Of a stretch of 64,000 nt of DNA, positions 3,712-10,383 are shown in pieces. The notes beneath the pieces were generated by a model that worked only from the letters and a program-made list of their open reading frames with translations, had not been told where the DNA came from and did no database searches. The DNA lies in the NCBI RefSeq assembly GCF_900128965.1, contig NZ_FQUL01000002.1, positions 62,001 through 126,000 on the forward strand, given 5' to 3'. The position numbers were made by a program, and so were the translations under genes. Source of the DNA: Ferrithrix thermotolerans DSM 19514. Lineage in GTDB: Bacteria > Actinomycetota > Acidimicrobiia > Acidimicrobiales > Acidimicrobiaceae. Each line of letters opens with the position of its first letter. Within the stretch, counting starts at the first letter, position 1.

Positions 3712-4629
3712 TTATAGCTCACCTCCGTTGGCCAAAGTATCAGAGCTAGATACTTCCTCGTATCTGCGGTCTAACCTTTGAGCCTCCCTCTCCTCTGCCG
3801 AGAACCACTGGAAAAAGATTGGAACTATACCCCCGACTATTGAGAACTCACTTAGACCCCAAAGCAACGCACCGCCAGCATGCGTAGTACCTAGAGAGTA
3901 CATAGATGCAACTGGCGTGGAGGCGCTCATAAGCGCAATACCTAAGAAGGTATCAAAGGGTACGCCAAGAACCAGCGCAAGAAACTTCATACCGAATCCC
4001 ATCTTCCACCTTACAATTGGGTCCGGGCTCACAAGTGGCCACCAAAACAGCGTCGCACCAAACAAAAACCCCAGGTTGATTAGATCCATCAGCCACATAT
4101 GCAACATTGCAATGTTGATGAGGGGCGTGAGAAAAAACACGTACATCACACCGTAGTACAAAGTCCAAGCACTGAGAGGATTTGATATAAGGAGAAAGGG
4201 TTTAGAGTGCAGGACAGATAACCAACGGCTCTTTGTCTTTCTTGAAGAGGTCTGAAGCAACAATGTGCTCGGTGCCCCGAGCGCCAACAAGGGCGGGGAC
4301 AGCGCCATGAGAATCATGTGCTGAGTAACATGAACAGAAAATGACGAACCCGCAAGTGTAGCTATAGGGGACTGTAGCGCTATATCAACGGTCAATAGAC
4401 CGATGAGGAAATTCACCGTTCTTGAGGTCTTCCAGTGAACCCCTCTCGTTCTAAGCTCTCTTACACTTTTTAGATACCAGATGCCCACCAGCACTACGAG
4501 AACGAGAATAAACATAGAAAATGGCGACCAACTCCACGAGCTCAGCATCGCCCCCCAAGAAAACCGAGGGAACATCATGGACTTAGATGGACCCATGCTC
4601 ATCTGCGCCAACAGATAGAGGTTATACAC
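3712..4629 (-). CDS. CtaG-family cytochrome c oxidase assembly protein (copy 1)
   Basis: Polytopic membrane protein of the caa3-type CtaG family, whose members help copper reach the CuB site of haem-copper oxidases. It is 305 residues long with about seven hydrophobic helices. Family-like features are 'HVTQHMILMALSPPLLALGAP' and the later 'LHMWLMDLINLGFLFGATLFWWPLVSPDP', with histidines inside or near helices. The GTG start at 4629 has a good AGGAG eight bases upstream. A paralogue follows 114 bases upstream on the same strand, and a SCO1-type protein lies beyond it, which supports a copper-delivery role. CtaG family membership is clear; the oxidase served is not visible here. Confidence 0.82.
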   Translation of the reverse strand: MYNLYLLAQMSMGPSKSMMFPRFSWGAMLSSWSWSPFSMFILVLVVLVGIWYLKSVRELRTRGVHWKTSRTVNFLIGLLTVDIALQSPIATLAGSSFSVHVTQHMILMALSPPLLALGAPSTLLLQTSSRKTKSRWLSVLHSKPFLLISNPLSAWTLYYGVMYVFFLTPLINIAMLHMWLMDLINLGFLFGATLFWWPLVSPDPIVRWKMGFGMKFLALVLGVPFDTFLGIALMSASTPVASMYSLGTTHAGGALLWGLSEFSIVGGIVPIFFQWFSAEEREAQRLDRRYEEVSSSDTLANGGEL

Positions 4630-4743: not shown

Positions 4744-5706
4744 TTAGTTCTGTGATCCAGGAGGCACCACAACCGGCCGCTTGATCCGCTTCAGCCATGG
4801 GGTAGGTTCGTTGTACTCGCCTGCGTCAGACTGAGACATCCATAGTTTGATGTTGTAATAAGCTGTATACACAAAGGGCTCCATACACAAAACCCAAAGC
4901 ACTGAAGCGGCAATCTGCTGGTCAGCCATTGCACTTAGAGTCTTCCCTGGAATATGGGAGTATACCGAAAACCAAGGACCTGAAGAAAGTCCGAGCAACA
5001 TAGCCAACATGAAGGACGAGTATGTGCCAACGAGGATCATACCAAGCCGGATAACGGGGTTTCCTACCCTCTTTGGGAAAGGTGGATTATCGATGAGATG
5101 CACAAATAGACCGATCCCAGCCGTTATGAAGGTGAAGTGCATAAGGTCCATGACGTATTCGTTCGTAACGGCGTAGGTCATCAAAGGGGGATAAAACCAC
5201 ACCCACATCACAGCTATGAAGTAGATCAGGGCGAGAAGCGGATTGGTAAGAAACCTCATAATCGAAGCCAAAGGACCTTCAAGAGACACGATCGTTGCCA
5301 ACTTGTCCATCGCTCCGTCAAGCCGATTTGGAACGCCAAGTCTCATAATTTGCCAAGGCTTCGAGCCAACGATAAAAGGGGGGACGGCAATCATCACGAG
5401 AACATGGATCAACATGTGCATGTAAAGATACACCATCGACCAGTACATCACCGGAGTAAAAAAAGATACCGACATTAAGAACATGCCGATCATGAACATA
5501 ATGACACTTTGGGTGTCTGCACCTACAGACAGAGGCCTACCCTCACTTTGATCCCTGTAGGCGACCTTTAGACCCCTGAAGTATAGAAGTGAAGGAACGA
5601 TGATAAACGGCAGCGTTATTATCAGATCCAACGACCAGTTGGATAGAAGGTACTTGACCACAAACCCAGCGTGCGACGATACCGCCGACATATTCATATC
5701 AGGCAC
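4744..5706 (-). CDS. CtaG-family cytochrome c oxidase assembly protein (copy 2)
   Basis: Second CtaG-like membrane protein, 320 residues from the GTG at 5706. That start has GGGAG eight bases upstream; the longer frame starting at 5715 would overlap its own SD. About seven helices are visible. Family-type segments include 'MHMLIHVLVMIAVPPFIVGSKPW' and 'YVMDLMHFTFITAGIGLFVHLIDNPPFP', with conserved-looking histidines. It is clearly diverged from the neighbouring copy, so it is an old paralogue rather than a fresh duplication. It probably acts with its neighbour and the SCO1 fusion in metallating a terminal oxidase. The C-terminal tail is basic and likely cytoplasmic. Confidence 0.78.
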   Translation of the reverse strand: MPDMNMSAVSSHAGFVVKYLLSNWSLDLIITLPFIIVPSLLYFRGLKVAYRDQSEGRPLSVGADTQSVIMFMIGMFLMSVSFFTPVMYWSMVYLYMHMLIHVLVMIAVPPFIVGSKPWQIMRLGVPNRLDGAMDKLATIVSLEGPLASIMRFLTNPLLALIYFIAVMWVWFYPPLMTYAVTNEYVMDLMHFTFITAGIGLFVHLIDNPPFPKRVGNPVIRLGMILVGTYSSFMLAMLLGLSSGPWFSVYSHIPGKTLSAMADQQIAASVLWVLCMEPFVYTAYYNIKLWMSQSDAGEYNEPTPWLKRIKRPVVVPPGSQN

Positions 5707-5804
5707 GAATACCACTCCCTAGTATAAAATTTAGTTCCTCGTCGCGGTAATTGTCGGATATCTCTCTCATCACAGCCTCACCTCTGCACGCCTTAGTGGT
5801 CAAC

Positions 5805-7025
5805 TTAGTTGGCTCTGGTCTGCTTAAATACATAGGCCAATACTCCATTGATCGTGCCAGAGAAATTCGATCTAGCACTCAAATCCCTTAGCTCTACCTG
5901 GTTCGGAGTACCTGAGTACAAAAACAGGTCGCTCCCGAAGGAGACAGGCAACACATTAGACATCGAGACCGCTGGCACAGAAAAAGACTCAAGCGGCGCG
6001 TTAGAGCCAGCACGCGGAAGTTCAGTTATGTCGATGTGTCCATCGGAACCCTTCGACAATATCGAGATAGCGACCAAGGGCTGCACCTGACTCGGAGTGC
6101 ACCCAATAAACTGACTCGGCACTACATTTGTGGTTTGTACTATTGGCGAGGAAGGGTTGTATCCGTCGCCAAATACCCGAGTGGTTACAACCTCAGAGTC
6201 CGAAGACGATCCGCTTGGAGTACAGGTCGCGGCCACCTCCCCCGATGAGGTCAAAAGAGTGACACCCCTAAGTAGAGGTGAGACCGTTCCGTAGCTAGTC
6301 CAAGTTCCACTTGACGAAGAGTACGAGGCCTCATAGGTTGTACTAGATCCCGATCCTCGGTAGATAGCGATAACACCAGAGCCAAATCCCAAAAGATCTT
6401 CAACCTTGTACATTCCAGGAGGAGTTGGAACTGCGCTAAATCCTCCCTGCAGCGGCAAAGAAGCTCGCACGACGGAGTCAGATCCGTTCTTTTTGGCAAC
6501 AGCTACGTAGATACCACGACTGGTAACAGCTATAGGGCTCGTGATGGGCGCCATAGGAAACCCTAGCTCCGCCGTCGACCAAGTCTTACCAACAGTCGAG
6601 GACACGAAGATAGGAGAGAGTAGCATAGACTGATATGCGTGCACCCCCGCAACCAAATAACCATCTCCGTTTGCAGCGACCGCAATCCCTCCACGAGTGC
6701 TTACCCCAGGCGGAGTTATGAACTGGGTCTGATGAGTCTGGGTATTAAACCCCACGAGAGCCCAGTAAGGACCAGATCTTCCAGTCAGGACCATCTCGCT
6801 GGGAGAGTACTGAATCGCATTGCTAAGAACACTTTGGCTGGTGGATAAAGACGAAGACAGCTCCGCAGGTGAAGAAGGTAAAGCTGGAGAGCTTTGACAA
6901 CTTGTAAGCGCCAAGGAGGCTAAAACTGCTAAGGCCGGCGCCGAAACCTTAGTAGTTTTCCCCTTGTTCTCAAACCTCCTCCATGATCTCACTAGAGCCA
7001 GCCCGCAAGAGTTATTGCTTGACAC
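5805..7025 (-). CDS. Secreted lipoprotein, Ser/Thr-rich, possible beta-propeller
   Basis: About 406 residues with a basic N-terminus, a hydrophobic stretch and a lipobox 'LTSC' with C43, so export and lipid anchoring are likely. After a Ser/Pro/Ala-rich linker comes a run of short beta-strand-like segments such as 'GIAVAANGDGYLVAGV' and 'IFVSSTVGKTWSTAELGFP'. The latter resembles the Asp-box loops of sialidase-type propellers. I do not recognise a catalytic family. The GTG start at 7025 has no clear SD, and a later GTG at codon 12 is possible; neither affects the lipobox. It lies between the CtaG genes and the SCO1 fusion on the same strand and may belong to the same unit. Confidence 0.6.
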   Translation of the reverse strand: MSSNNSCGLALVRSWRRFENKGKTTKVSAPALAVLASLALTSCQSSPALPSSPAELSSSLSTSQSVLSNAIQYSPSEMVLTGRSGPYWALVGFNTQTHQTQFITPPGVSTRGGIAVAANGDGYLVAGVHAYQSMLLSPIFVSSTVGKTWSTAELGFPMAPITSPIAVTSRGIYVAVAKKNGSDSVVRASLPLQGGFSAVPTPPGMYKVEDLLGFGSGVIAIYRGSGSSTTYEASYSSSSGTWTSYGTVSPLLRGVTLLTSSGEVAATCTPSGSSSDSEVVTTRVFGDGYNPSSPIVQTTNVVPSQFIGCTPSQVQPLVAISILSKGSDGHIDITELPRAGSNAPLESFSVPAVSMSNVLPVSFGSDLFLYSGTPNQVELRDLSARSNFSGTINGVLAYVFKQTRAN

Positions 7026-7105: not shown

Positions 7106-8863
7106 CTAACCGACGATTGGCTGCGCCGCCTTGTAGATCAAAGACACGTAGCTAGTCGTCAACTGCTCATTGGCTGTATCTTCAAGAACCGATACCTCTT
7201 GACCCTTTGGATTTATAAAGTACAGCAGCTGCGAGTGAAGCACCATGCCCTCTCTCGGCGTTACCACCGTGACCTCATAACCGTTCCAGATCTTTTGCAA
7301 CTGGGCATCACTACCTGTTAGGAAGTAAAAGTTCTTGTACTTAGAGAGACTATGAGAGACAACAAACGCCGAGGTGTCTGCGACAGAGTGAAAAACCGGA
7401 TCCGCTACCACGGCGACAAGAGCTACGTTCGACGCCCTAGAGCCAAACTCAGAGTCGGCAGCAACCATCTCCTGTGCTATGAGCGGGCAGGAGTCGTAGC
7501 ACACCGGATCAAGGAACGTTAGGATCACCGGTCGTCCCCTAAATGACGAAAGCGATACCTTCTGGCCGTTGTAGTTGGTAAGAGAAAATCCAGGAGCCGG
7601 CGTCTGCTGTAGTGGCTGTACACCAGCGGAGTCCACCTGGGCCATTGCGTCTGAGGTGGGGCCAGGCACCGCTACGGCGACTATACCCAAAGAAAGTAAA
7701 AGACCGGTTAGTGGCAGTCCCGCAACAAACCCCTTTATCTTCGAGAACGGACCCTCCAATACCTCCCTCTCAAGGGGAACGCTTGCTCGATCGACCGCCA
7801 CAGCCTCGGCGCTTCGAAGCAAAGATAGGGCTAGCACGATGAATGGAAGGCCCGAGTTGAAGTCCGTAGCCGTCGATGAAAACACACCGAAGTCCATCCC
7901 GACCCACCATCCGAAAAACATCACCACCGACGCAGAGATAGAAGAGACCTTCGACTTTGGAAGCACATAAAGCAAAAGGGCTGAGGCGATCGGCAACACC
8001 ACGAGCATCGAGTTAGCAACGATAGGAGAGGCTGAAGCCAACGAGGCGAACTCTTTAACTCCGAATGAGGCAAAGCCTGGCTGATTGGCCTGGGCCATCT
8101 GCGACATCATCGACGACAACCCACCCGGTTTCCAGTACCCTTCACTTGGAAGAGCCTGTAGCACACCACCGACTAAAAGAAAGGCAGCCGAGAAATAAGC
8201 CACGACTCGAGCGTCTTTGACCCACGGTCGTCCAGACTCGGCGGCCAGGAGGTAGATAGCCGCAAAGCCGTAGATCAGAATCGCAGCGGGGGCACCGGTT
8301 ACGAACGCCGCACCATGGTAAAACACTCCAGCACCGTTACCCACTACAAAGACGATCAAAGACCATATGAGCGAGACGTATAAGACGCCTCTTCTAAGCA
8401 CCCCCCTTGAGAGCGTCAAAAGACCAATTCCGATCGCTAGCTGTATCCACGCAGTGGCTAGGTCAACCCTGATTGGGTGCGCGTTCCAAATATTTAGAAA
8501 CACGTTAGCAATAGATACAATAAAGGAGGGAGCTCCTTGCAACGCAGGTTGCGCAACTTGGGATATGAATCCACCGGGCATATCGGGCCTTAGTTGGAAC
8601 AGTCCATCTACAACCCAGAGAACTCCAAAGCCGATCCGTATGAAATGTGCCCTAGGAGAGGTAGAGAGGTCTTCTCCATTCATCCACGGCCTGCCGTCAA
8701 AGAAACGATCAAAACGCCCTTTGAAACTCACACCGAATAGAGAGGTTGTAATCCCTAGTATCACAACAAGACCCAAGGCAGCTACCGCACTAAGCAGCAA
8801 CAACGAATATAGCGAAGACGCCAGTACGCCGTAGTCTTGGGCAGATGAACCCATTCCTGGCAT
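7106..8863 (-). CDS. Multi-pass membrane protein fused to a SCO1/SenC thioredoxin-fold domain
   Basis: 585 residues from the ATG at 8863, which has AAGGAAG eight bases upstream. Residues about 15-410 contain roughly ten hydrophobic helices of unrecognised family ('GFGVLWVVDGLFQLRPDMP' is a striking segment). Residues 423-585 are a SCO1/SenC domain with 'DPVCYDSCP', i.e. the CxxxC copper-binding pair C455/C459, and the conserved His in 'VLHSQ' (H543). SCO proteins deliver copper to the CuA site of cytochrome oxidase or act as thiol reductases. The usual SCO is a single-anchor protein of about 200 residues, so the large membrane part is unusual. The location near two CtaG paralogues supports a copper/oxidase role. 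Confidence 0.8.
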   Translation of the reverse strand: MPGMGSSAQDYGVLASSLYSLLLLSAVAALGLVVILGITTSLFGVSFKGRFDRFFDGRPWMNGEDLSTSPRAHFIRIGFGVLWVVDGLFQLRPDMPGGFISQVAQPALQGAPSFIVSIANVFLNIWNAHPIRVDLATAWIQLAIGIGLLTLSRGVLRRGVLYVSLIWSLIVFVVGNGAGVFYHGAAFVTGAPAAILIYGFAAIYLLAAESGRPWVKDARVVAYFSAAFLLVGGVLQALPSEGYWKPGGLSSMMSQMAQANQPGFASFGVKEFASLASASPIVANSMLVVLPIASALLLYVLPKSKVSSISASVVMFFGWWVGMDFGVFSSTATDFNSGLPFIVLALSLLRSAEAVAVDRASVPLEREVLEGPFSKIKGFVAGLPLTGLLLSLGIVAVAVPGPTSDAMAQVDSAGVQPLQQTPAPGFSLTNYNGQKVSLSSFRGRPVILTFLDPVCYDSCPLIAQEMVAADSEFGSRASNVALVAVVADPVFHSVADTSAFVVSHSLSKYKNFYFLTGSDAQLQKIWNGYEVTVVTPREGMVLHSQLLYFINPKGQEVSVLEDTANEQLTTSYVSLIYKAAQPIVG

Positions 8864-8919: not shown

Positions 8920-9753
8920 TCAGAGTGTGACCTTGAAGGTAGCGTCCACCTTGCGCTCCAATGGGCTACAGGGCAAGGCAGCTACTGTCTTTGAAGCTGT
9001 TACAGCAACCAAGCTATGGTGGCTGTAAGCGCTTGAGGCTTCGACCTTCGCTATCGAAGAGGTAATCAAAATCGGAGCCAGAACCACCAGCGCCATGGCC
9101 ACCCGATACCTCCACCTCGTTATTGGGGACTCTGACACCACTCTTACAATTTCTTTCGTTACAGCCTTCGATTGAGATTGGCTCATCGATCTAACCAGTA
9201 AATCAGAGCCGATATAACTCATAGATAGTGCAACTGTCTCGACGAGGAGGTTCAAAGATAGGAACTCCCCAGATACATAAGTCGCAACTAACAGTATTGC
9301 GATAAGCGCAAGCCCTAGCCTGAGAATGGATCTAGCAAGCACAGCGAAGCGCTGCACATAAAAGCCGAACCAAAATAAAGACGCTAACACCAAAAGCGCT
9401 ACCAGAGCTGCACCAAGCAGCGAGGCTCCGTTCTTCACTGACCCGAGGGTAGTCTTGACCACGTAGATATCTAGAAGAGTTGAGACGACACCGAACATCA
9501 TCGCTGTCCATCTGAAACTCTTCCTCTCCACCGCGTAAAGTACAGATCTAAGCGGAGCGGATGACTCGACTACCAGGCCTCGCTTTCTGAGCTGCATCAT
9601 ACCCACTTGCGCCTCAAGTGACGTGAAGACGTACTCTCGGCAAACTGGACACACCGAAAGATGGCGATCAAAGTCACTCCAAGGCATAGAGTCTTCAGCG
9701 TCCAAGAACGCATCGAAACTTTCACAAAAGCTTTCGCAACTAGTTGTTCTCAC
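8920..9753 (-). CDS. Membrane anti-sigma factor with zinc-finger (ZAS) N-terminus
   Basis: 277 residues. The N-terminus holds the anti-sigma zinc motif H31-x3-C35-x2-C38 ('HLSVCPVC'), typical of ZAS-domain proteins that sequester ECF sigma factors. Several hydrophobic helices follow between about 85 and 235, then a short outer tail. The gene is divergent from an ECF sigma gene, with only 57 bases between the two starts. Anti-sigma genes usually lie downstream of and co-directional with their sigma gene, so the divergent arrangement is less usual. Pairing is inferred from adjacency. The signal could be redox, metal or envelope stress; the neighbouring copper/oxidase genes are plausible targets. 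Confidence 0.75.
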   Translation of the reverse strand: MRTTSCESFCESFDAFLDAEDSMPWSDFDRHLSVCPVCREYVFTSLEAQVGMMQLRKRGLVVESSAPLRSVLYAVERKSFRWTAMMFGVVSTLLDIYVVKTTLGSVKNGASLLGAALVALLVLASLFWFGFYVQRFAVLARSILRLGLALIAILLVATYVSGEFLSLNLLVETVALSMSYIGSDLLVRSMSQSQSKAVTKEIVRVVSESPITRWRYRVAMALVVLAPILITSSIAKVEASSAYSHHSLVAVTASKTVAALPCSPLERKVDATFKVTL

Positions 9754-9810
9754 CGATATGGCATTCGCTGGAAGTACTCAAAAAGTTGGAAGCAATTTAG
9801 ACTTGAGGAT

Positions 9811-10383
9811 ATGGCAGCTGGAGGTTTCCGGGATAATCACGACGACAGCCTGAGGGAGCTTCTAGTGGATGCCTCCAAAGGCGACGTCCTTGCGTTTGAA
9901 GAGTTCGTGCGAAATACCAGGGCAATGGTATTCTCCTACGTTTTAGGAATGGTTCCAAGAGACATGGTCGAGGACGTGGTACAAGATATCTACCTTAGGC
10001 TGTGGAGAGCTAAAGGCTCATACAACTCTGACTTTGATGCAAAGGCCTTCCTTTTCACGTTAGCCTACAGAAGTTGCACCGACGCACTGAGGTCCCACTC
10101 AAAACAACTTCGCAACATTGCCGCCGTCGCAACTGAAGCCCAAGGTACAGGAGAGATCTTCCCAATCTCGCAGTCTGATCTTGCCATTGATCTTACCGTC
10201 CTTAGTAAAGAACAAAAAGAGGTGTTGTTACTAGTTGGCGGAGAGGGCTTTTCTTACGCTGAAGCTGCAGAGATACTAGGCATCAAGGTCCAAACTGTAA
10301 AGTCTCGTCTGCACGAGGCACGCCGTCTACTGCAAAGATCAAAGGAAAACTCCAGGGACTCTTCACGGGAAAATCTTGCCTAA
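9811..10383 (+). CDS. ECF-family RNA polymerase sigma factor
   Basis: 190 residues from the ATG at 9811. A longer frame reaching back to 9661 would overlap the divergent anti-sigma gene. Region 2 covers about 12-85, including 'MVEDVVQDIYLRLWR' and 'LAYRSCTDALR'. Region 4 covers about 130-180, with the helix-turn-helix 'FSYAEAAEILGIKVQTVKSRLHEARRLL'. Sigma region 3 is absent, as expected for the ECF group. The GAGG upstream is very close to the ATG, so the initiation site is not certain. The facing anti-sigma gene is its probable partner. A perfect hairpin overlaps the stop codon (10381-10396). Confidence 0.85.
   Translation: MAAGGFRDNHDDSLRELLVDASKGDVLAFEEFVRNTRAMVFSYVLGMVPRDMVEDVVQDIYLRLWRAKGSYNSDFDAKAFLFTLAYRSCTDALRSHSKQLRNIAAVATEAQGTGEIFPISQSDLAIDLTVLSKEQKEVLLLVGGEGFSYAEAAEILGIKVQTVKSRLHEARRLLQRSKENSRDSSRENLA

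Follow-up and report, generated by a model that had tools for sequence, protein, structure and literature searches.

The window, a stretch of 64,000 nucleotides from Ferrithrix thermotolerans DSM 19514, encodes a 585-amino-acid protein in which a SCO1/SenC domain is joined to a large membrane domain built from a duplicated four-helix unit. We lean toward reading the protein as a factor dedicated to delivering copper to a heme-copper oxidase. The domain composition, its conservation, the gene neighborhood, and the swapping of domains among relatives were observed directly; copper binding, hand-off at the outer face of the membrane, and the identity of the client are inferred.

Domain structure and the duplicated membrane domain

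The fusion open reading frame begins with an ATG at position 8863 and runs on the minus strand to 7106, exactly the span given in the initial annotation, and a purine-rich stretch of the ribosome-binding-site type (AAAGGAAG) lies approximately 10 bases upstream of the ATG. Because the fusion is kept over many genomes, it is neither a chance product nor an assembly artifact, and we conclude that the frame is a real gene. The protein and its parts are as follows.

7106 to 8863, minus strand: membrane-SCO fusion protein, 585 amino acids, ATG start
8747 to 8815, minus strand: N-terminal transmembrane helix, residues 17 to 39, from hydropathy; N terminus predicted outside by positive-inside count
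8219 to 8668, minus strand: membrane repeat 1, residues 66 to 215, a four-helix unit, from repeat profile comparison
7793 to 8218, minus strand: membrane repeat 2, residues 216 to 357, a four-helix unit, from the match of repeat 1 to repeat 2
7670 to 7729, minus strand: transmembrane helix preceding the SCO domain, residues 379 to 398, from hydropathy
7199 to 7591, minus strand: SCO1/SenC domain, residues 425 to 555 (Pfam PF02630, E = 1.8e-13)
7487 to 7501, minus strand: CxxxC copper motif (of 40 fused loci, 39 keep C455 and 38 keep C459)
7235 to 7237, minus strand: copper-ligand residue H543 (in 38 of 40 fused loci)

The Pfam SCO1-SenC profile scored 51.1 bits relative to a cut-off of 22.8, and the closest SCO sequences with a solved structure were those of B. 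subtilis YpmQ/Sco1 (E = 1e-7). The CxxxC motif and the distal His of the SCO1/SenC group were present as C455, C459, and H543, and they follow approximately 400 membrane residues as had been described in the initial annotation. The motif was retained in 38 of the 40 fused loci examined, the exceptions being L029, where the SCO domain lacks C459 and H543, and L219, where it lacks both Cys residues and the His. A profile search of the genome that contains the window returned a single SCO above the family cut-off.

Nine Kyte-Doolittle peaks above 1.4 were found in the approximately 400 residues preceding the SCO domain and, together with the Pfam match and the conservation of the fusion, they bear out the earlier claim of a SCO1 domain on a large polytopic membrane protein. 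A tenth transmembrane helix, at residues 72 to 91, is predicted from repeat symmetry, and a low-confidence AlphaFold model (pLDDT 35.6) built from the window protein and its two close relatives likewise shows a helix there. Profile-profile (HH) comparison based on 72 sequences matched repeat 1 to repeat 2 with a score of 112.5 (E = 1e-18), and reversed profiles and other membrane families scored at most 22.4 in the same comparison, save MauE (30.1 with repeat 2 and 28.5 with the whole). As the two halves are homologous at this level, we conclude that residues 66 to 357 are a duplicated four-helix unit.

In the topology assigned in this analysis, Lys and Arg account for 17 of 80 residues in the inner loops versus 4 of 121 in the outer loops, a distribution that places the SCO domain outside. 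Under the same assignment, conservation was higher on the outer side, both in the loops (1.84 versus 1.06 bits) and in the transmembrane halves (2.03 versus 1.38 bits). Conserved residues include W83, D86, Q90, M95, P112, H129, Q141, W167, P192, and Y198 in repeat 1 and P262, W319, T333, D334, and N336 in repeat 2. Over the 72 sequences, which comprise fused and stand-alone forms, Q141, Y198, and D334 were invariant, M95 and N336 were each found in 71, and H129 was found in 61. At three positions, the window protein itself has a residue other than the consensus of the 72 sequences: R92 where 65 have Q, N176 where 52 have E, and M323 where 50 have Q.

Residues 66 to 357 matched no family in Pfam, NCBIfam, or the PDB, the search of solved structures giving a single hit at E = 1.8, and no relatives of the membrane part were found in the viral and plasmid collections searched. 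The initial annotation had likewise been unable to assign this part; a match to a known family unrelated to metals or electron transport, which would speak against its proposal of a copper transporter or reductase, was looked for, and no family matched. Specific candidates were rejected as well: CopD (no Pfam match; HH score of 15.6 versus 14.8 for a reversed control), CtaG (HH score of 17.1 to the CtaG set; no Pfam match), and COX1 and COX3, for which homology was not established against reversed-profile controls. Homology to DoxX/MauE was also not established against such controls and amounts to a sub-threshold hint; the phylum contains too few DoxX_3 and DUF6041 proteins to build profiles from. 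Neither a CopD, nor a heme-reductase, nor a Cys-relay mechanism was seen in the membrane part, in which H129 is the only well-conserved His, arguing against a bis-His heme reductase, and which in the window protein contains no Cys. The initial proposal is supported in part: a link of the membrane part to copper or oxidase assembly is borne out by the CtaG and COX neighbors and by the CopC-CopD tail swap described below, and a transporter or reductase was not demonstrated.

The hint of DoxX/MauE similarity bears on a rival explanation that treats the membrane part as a redox module, a duplicated and distant MauE/DoxX-type unit that would convey quinol-derived reducing equivalents to the SCO thiols or copper. 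The helix plan is the same as that of MauE/DoxX, the match of repeat 2 to MauE had 33% probability, below significance, with controls scoring up to 22, of 24 members, 3 had a sub-threshold Pfam match to DoxX_3 (best E = 0.079) and 1 to MauE, and stand-alone relatives adjoin genes for NrfD and 4Fe-4S proteins. The DoxX and MauE profiles detect one another with a score of 60.3, however, and yet neither matches the membrane family significantly; moreover, the membrane part lacks both Cys and a conserved His pair. We consider a redox module unlikely.

Distribution of the fusion and exchange of the tail domain

Of 198 genomes sampled from the class, 20 have the membrane part. Among 397 genomes sampled from the order, 118 matched the fusion profile at an E value of 1e-10 or lower, a count that includes SCO-only matches, and 57 carry the fused gene by hand count of the listed rows; a gene was taken as fused if one match began at or before profile position 34 and reached position 560 or beyond. 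A tree was built from 72 of 89 membrane domains after removal of identical sequences, and one branch with a support of 100 (SH-aLRT) separated 47 SCO-fused, 2 tail-swapped, and 2 SCO-less sequences from 17 stand-alone and 4 Met/His-tailed rows. The pattern fits one origin of the fusion followed by two losses (L040 and L042) and one replacement (L187 and L188), although the membrane-SCO family may have had another history. L040 and L042 lack SCO within the fused clade and, judged from their placement, look like secondary losses.

The initial annotation had suggested looking for stand-alone versions next to separate SCO genes. Stand-alone forms do exist, but most of them make up a separate sister group without an adjacent SCO gene; for the SCO-less L040, a separate SCO gene was found in the same genome, within an oxidase cluster (L087). 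At L083, the membrane part and SCO lie in two frames, but a natural split was rejected in favor of a probable sequencing frameshift, as one frame adjoins the other at the point of continuation expected for a fused protein and no stop closes the first. The membrane-domain gene at L194 (375 to 2474) is split by an in-frame TAG, and several further stand-alone matches contain one stop within the match, which may represent broken genes, separate open reading frames, or readthrough.

Within the fused clade, L187 and L188 carry, instead of SCO, the domain that forms the outer tail of CopC-CopD proteins. A search of 296 genomes with the L187/L188 tail gave one match, L223, in which CopC and CopD (Pfam E = 2e-16 and 3e-15, respectively) are followed by the tail, and 21 plasmid records matched as well, of which 20 are labeled as CopC or CopC/CopD copper resistance proteins and 1 is labeled hypothetical. 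When compared to a profile built from L223 and eight of these plasmid proteins, nine CopC-CopD sequences in all, the tail scored 224.9 (HH E = 7e-35), versus 26.6 for a reversed control. Moreover, the gene for the membrane-tail protein of L187 lies 140 bases from CtaG. In the four sister-group proteins L182 to L185, the linkers are rich in Met, and the tail, which has no Pfam match, is rich in His and Cys. Their C-terminal approximately 250 residues share conserved QWHxHxNLC and CxPG motifs, and that the ligand of this tail might be copper is a guess.

Gene neighborhood and the proposed role in copper delivery

The fusion gene of the window is followed by genes for a lipoprotein and two CtaG proteins, and a divergent extracytoplasmic function (ECF) sigma factor gene lies upstream.

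5805 to 7025, minus strand: putative lipoprotein, no family match; its own or a weakly similar sister family occurs at 21 of 40 loci
4744 to 5715, minus strand: Caa3_CtaG oxidase assembly protein (Pfam E = 1.5e-33)
3712 to 4629, minus strand: second Caa3_CtaG protein (Pfam E = 9e-57)
8920 to 9753, minus strand: putative membrane anti-sigma-like protein, assigned only by its position and a CPVC motif, with nothing in Pfam above cut-off
9661 to 10383, plus strand: ECF-type sigma factor, divergent (Pfam Sigma70_r4_2, E = 3.5e-14)

Neighbors within 6 kb were tallied for 40 fused and 29 membrane-only loci picked from the search hits, with L083, classed as fused in the tree, counted here as membrane-only. 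CtaG was found at 22 of 40 fused versus 3 of 29 membrane-only loci (Fisher P = 1.3e-4, which is optimistic as the loci are related), or at 23 of 41 versus 2 of 28 with L083 counted as fused. COX1 was found at 11 of 40 versus 1 of 29 of these related loci, and either of two lipoprotein families was found nearby at 21 of 40 versus 1 of 29. In several genomes, the order was fusion, CtaG, cupredoxin-like protein, COX2, COX1, and COX3. The cupredoxin-like protein is secreted, carries a CxxxCG..GxM motif, precedes COX2 at many loci, and is sometimes present in several copies; examples, none with a Pfam match above cut-off, occur at L034 (5354 to 6037), L040, L098 (5417 to 6097), L190, and L193. The window lipoprotein showed no more than a weak link to the F510_1955 propeller family, found beside CopC in Rhodococcus.

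ECF genes lay within 6 kb of 11 of the 40 fused loci, mostly on the opposite strand, suggesting regulation, and the anti-sigma-like gene was retained in L004 and L005. As listed, the ECF sigma and anti-sigma-like genes of the window overlap on opposite strands (8920 to 10383), and the true start of the sigma factor gene is probably downstream of the listed one.

Stand-alone relatives adjoin genes for lysyl oxidase (L049), NrfD and 4Fe-4S proteins (L048), or cupredoxin-like proteins, and the variety of neighbors suggests that the membrane family may serve more than one purpose. Both L048 and L040 are SCO-less membrane proteins near NrfD, the former with a 4Fe-4S protein and the latter with cupredoxin-like genes, surroundings that possibly represent an electron-transport cluster.

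CtaG and COX synteny, together with the interchangeable tail domains, would also be expected if the membrane part were a mere docking scaffold that brings SCO to CtaG and the oxidase subunits. The outer-face residues that are invariant in fused and stand-alone forms suggest an active or ligand site instead, and stand-alone forms exist without any such tail, such that a scaffold seems improbable to us. That the client is another extracytoplasmic cuproenzyme and not an aa3-type oxidase is very unlikely, as CtaG or COX1/COX2 adjoins 23 of the 40 fused loci, even though 8 of the 40 lack any tested neighbor within 6 kb (one of them, L029, has a flank of just 0.6 kb at one end) and lysyl oxidase or cupredoxin-like genes neighbor some of the stand-alone relatives.

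Delivery of copper to a heme-copper oxidase is the reading supported by the SCO profile and motif, by CtaG/COX1 synteny, and by the presence of only one SCO above cut-off in a genome with two COX1 genes, and it is further supported by the CopC-CopD tail swap, the Met/His/Cys tails, and the conservation of the outer face. Against it stand the absence of profile similarity to CopD or CtaG, the 8 of 40 fused loci without tested neighbors, the other neighbors of stand-alone relatives, and the loss of SCO motif residues in L029 and L219; in addition, the sidedness comes from a topology that we assigned ourselves, and the two COX1 genes of the genome are both on contigs other than that of the window. 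In copper delivery as we propose it, the outer SCO domain would bind copper through C455, C459, and H543 and assist assembly of the oxidase copper centers, and the duplicated eight-helix domain, with two further helices, would anchor it beside CtaG and the nascent oxidase subunits. The membrane domain most likely would handle copper too, through a conserved outer-face site (D86, M95, H129, D334, and N336), and would pass it to or from the attached chaperone, occupying the position that CopD has in CopC-CopD-tail proteins. A further step is tentative and in our estimate rather doubtful: the duplicated domain could be a new copper-handling family, unrelated in sequence to CopD and CtaG, that directly loads an exchangeable attached chaperone, be it SCO, the CopC-CopD tail, or a Met/His-rich tail. 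The route of copper to SCO and the oxidase copper centers is poorly known in actinomycetes, and the fusion offers a specific candidate, open to testing, for the membrane step that is missing. Moreover, the fusions to SCO and to the CopC-CopD tail give a widespread membrane family its first functional frame.

Comparison with known systems

Known SCO proteins have a single transmembrane or lipid anchor in the account of PMC9145763, and the membrane-SCO architecture is by that measure a variant. No paper found in our literature searches described SCO carried by a polytopic membrane domain. Like the SCO1/SenC chaperones (B. subtilis YpmQ/BsSCO), the window protein has a thioredoxin-like SCO domain with CxxxC and His, and genes of its type are linked to CtaG/oxidase genes in its group; unlike those chaperones with the one anchor described (PMC9145763), it has approximately 10 transmembrane helices. 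SCO1-MauG fusions near methanethiol oxidase, as outlined in PMC5739008, also combine SCO with another domain in one gene, but the partner there is a heme protein and not a membrane domain. MauE/DoxX proteins share the four-helix plan and a weak, sub-threshold profile hint, but there is no significant match, and the CGCFG-type Cys residues of the MauE profile are missing from the membrane part of the window protein.

Two systems are closer in overall design. CtiP of Corynebacterium glutamicum, which joins a CopD-like segment to CtaG, is likewise a large polytopic actinomycete fusion, required for oxidase assembly, but the relevant portion of PMC9145763 mentions no SCO domain in it. CopC-CopD-tail importers of the YcnJ type, in the part of PMC13344008 that treats them, combine a polytopic membrane domain with outer copper-binding domains and support oxidases. 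The tail of YcnJ is named there as YtkA, and the tail studied here is that of L223 and the plasmid CopC-CopD proteins. The window membrane domain, in contrast, has no detectable kinship to CopD, and SCO stands where those importers have CopC and their tail. Nonetheless, the CopC-CopD tail occurs on relatives of the window membrane domain, and the window protein shares with YcnJ a polytopic domain, an outer copper-related domain, and linkage to oxidase genes.
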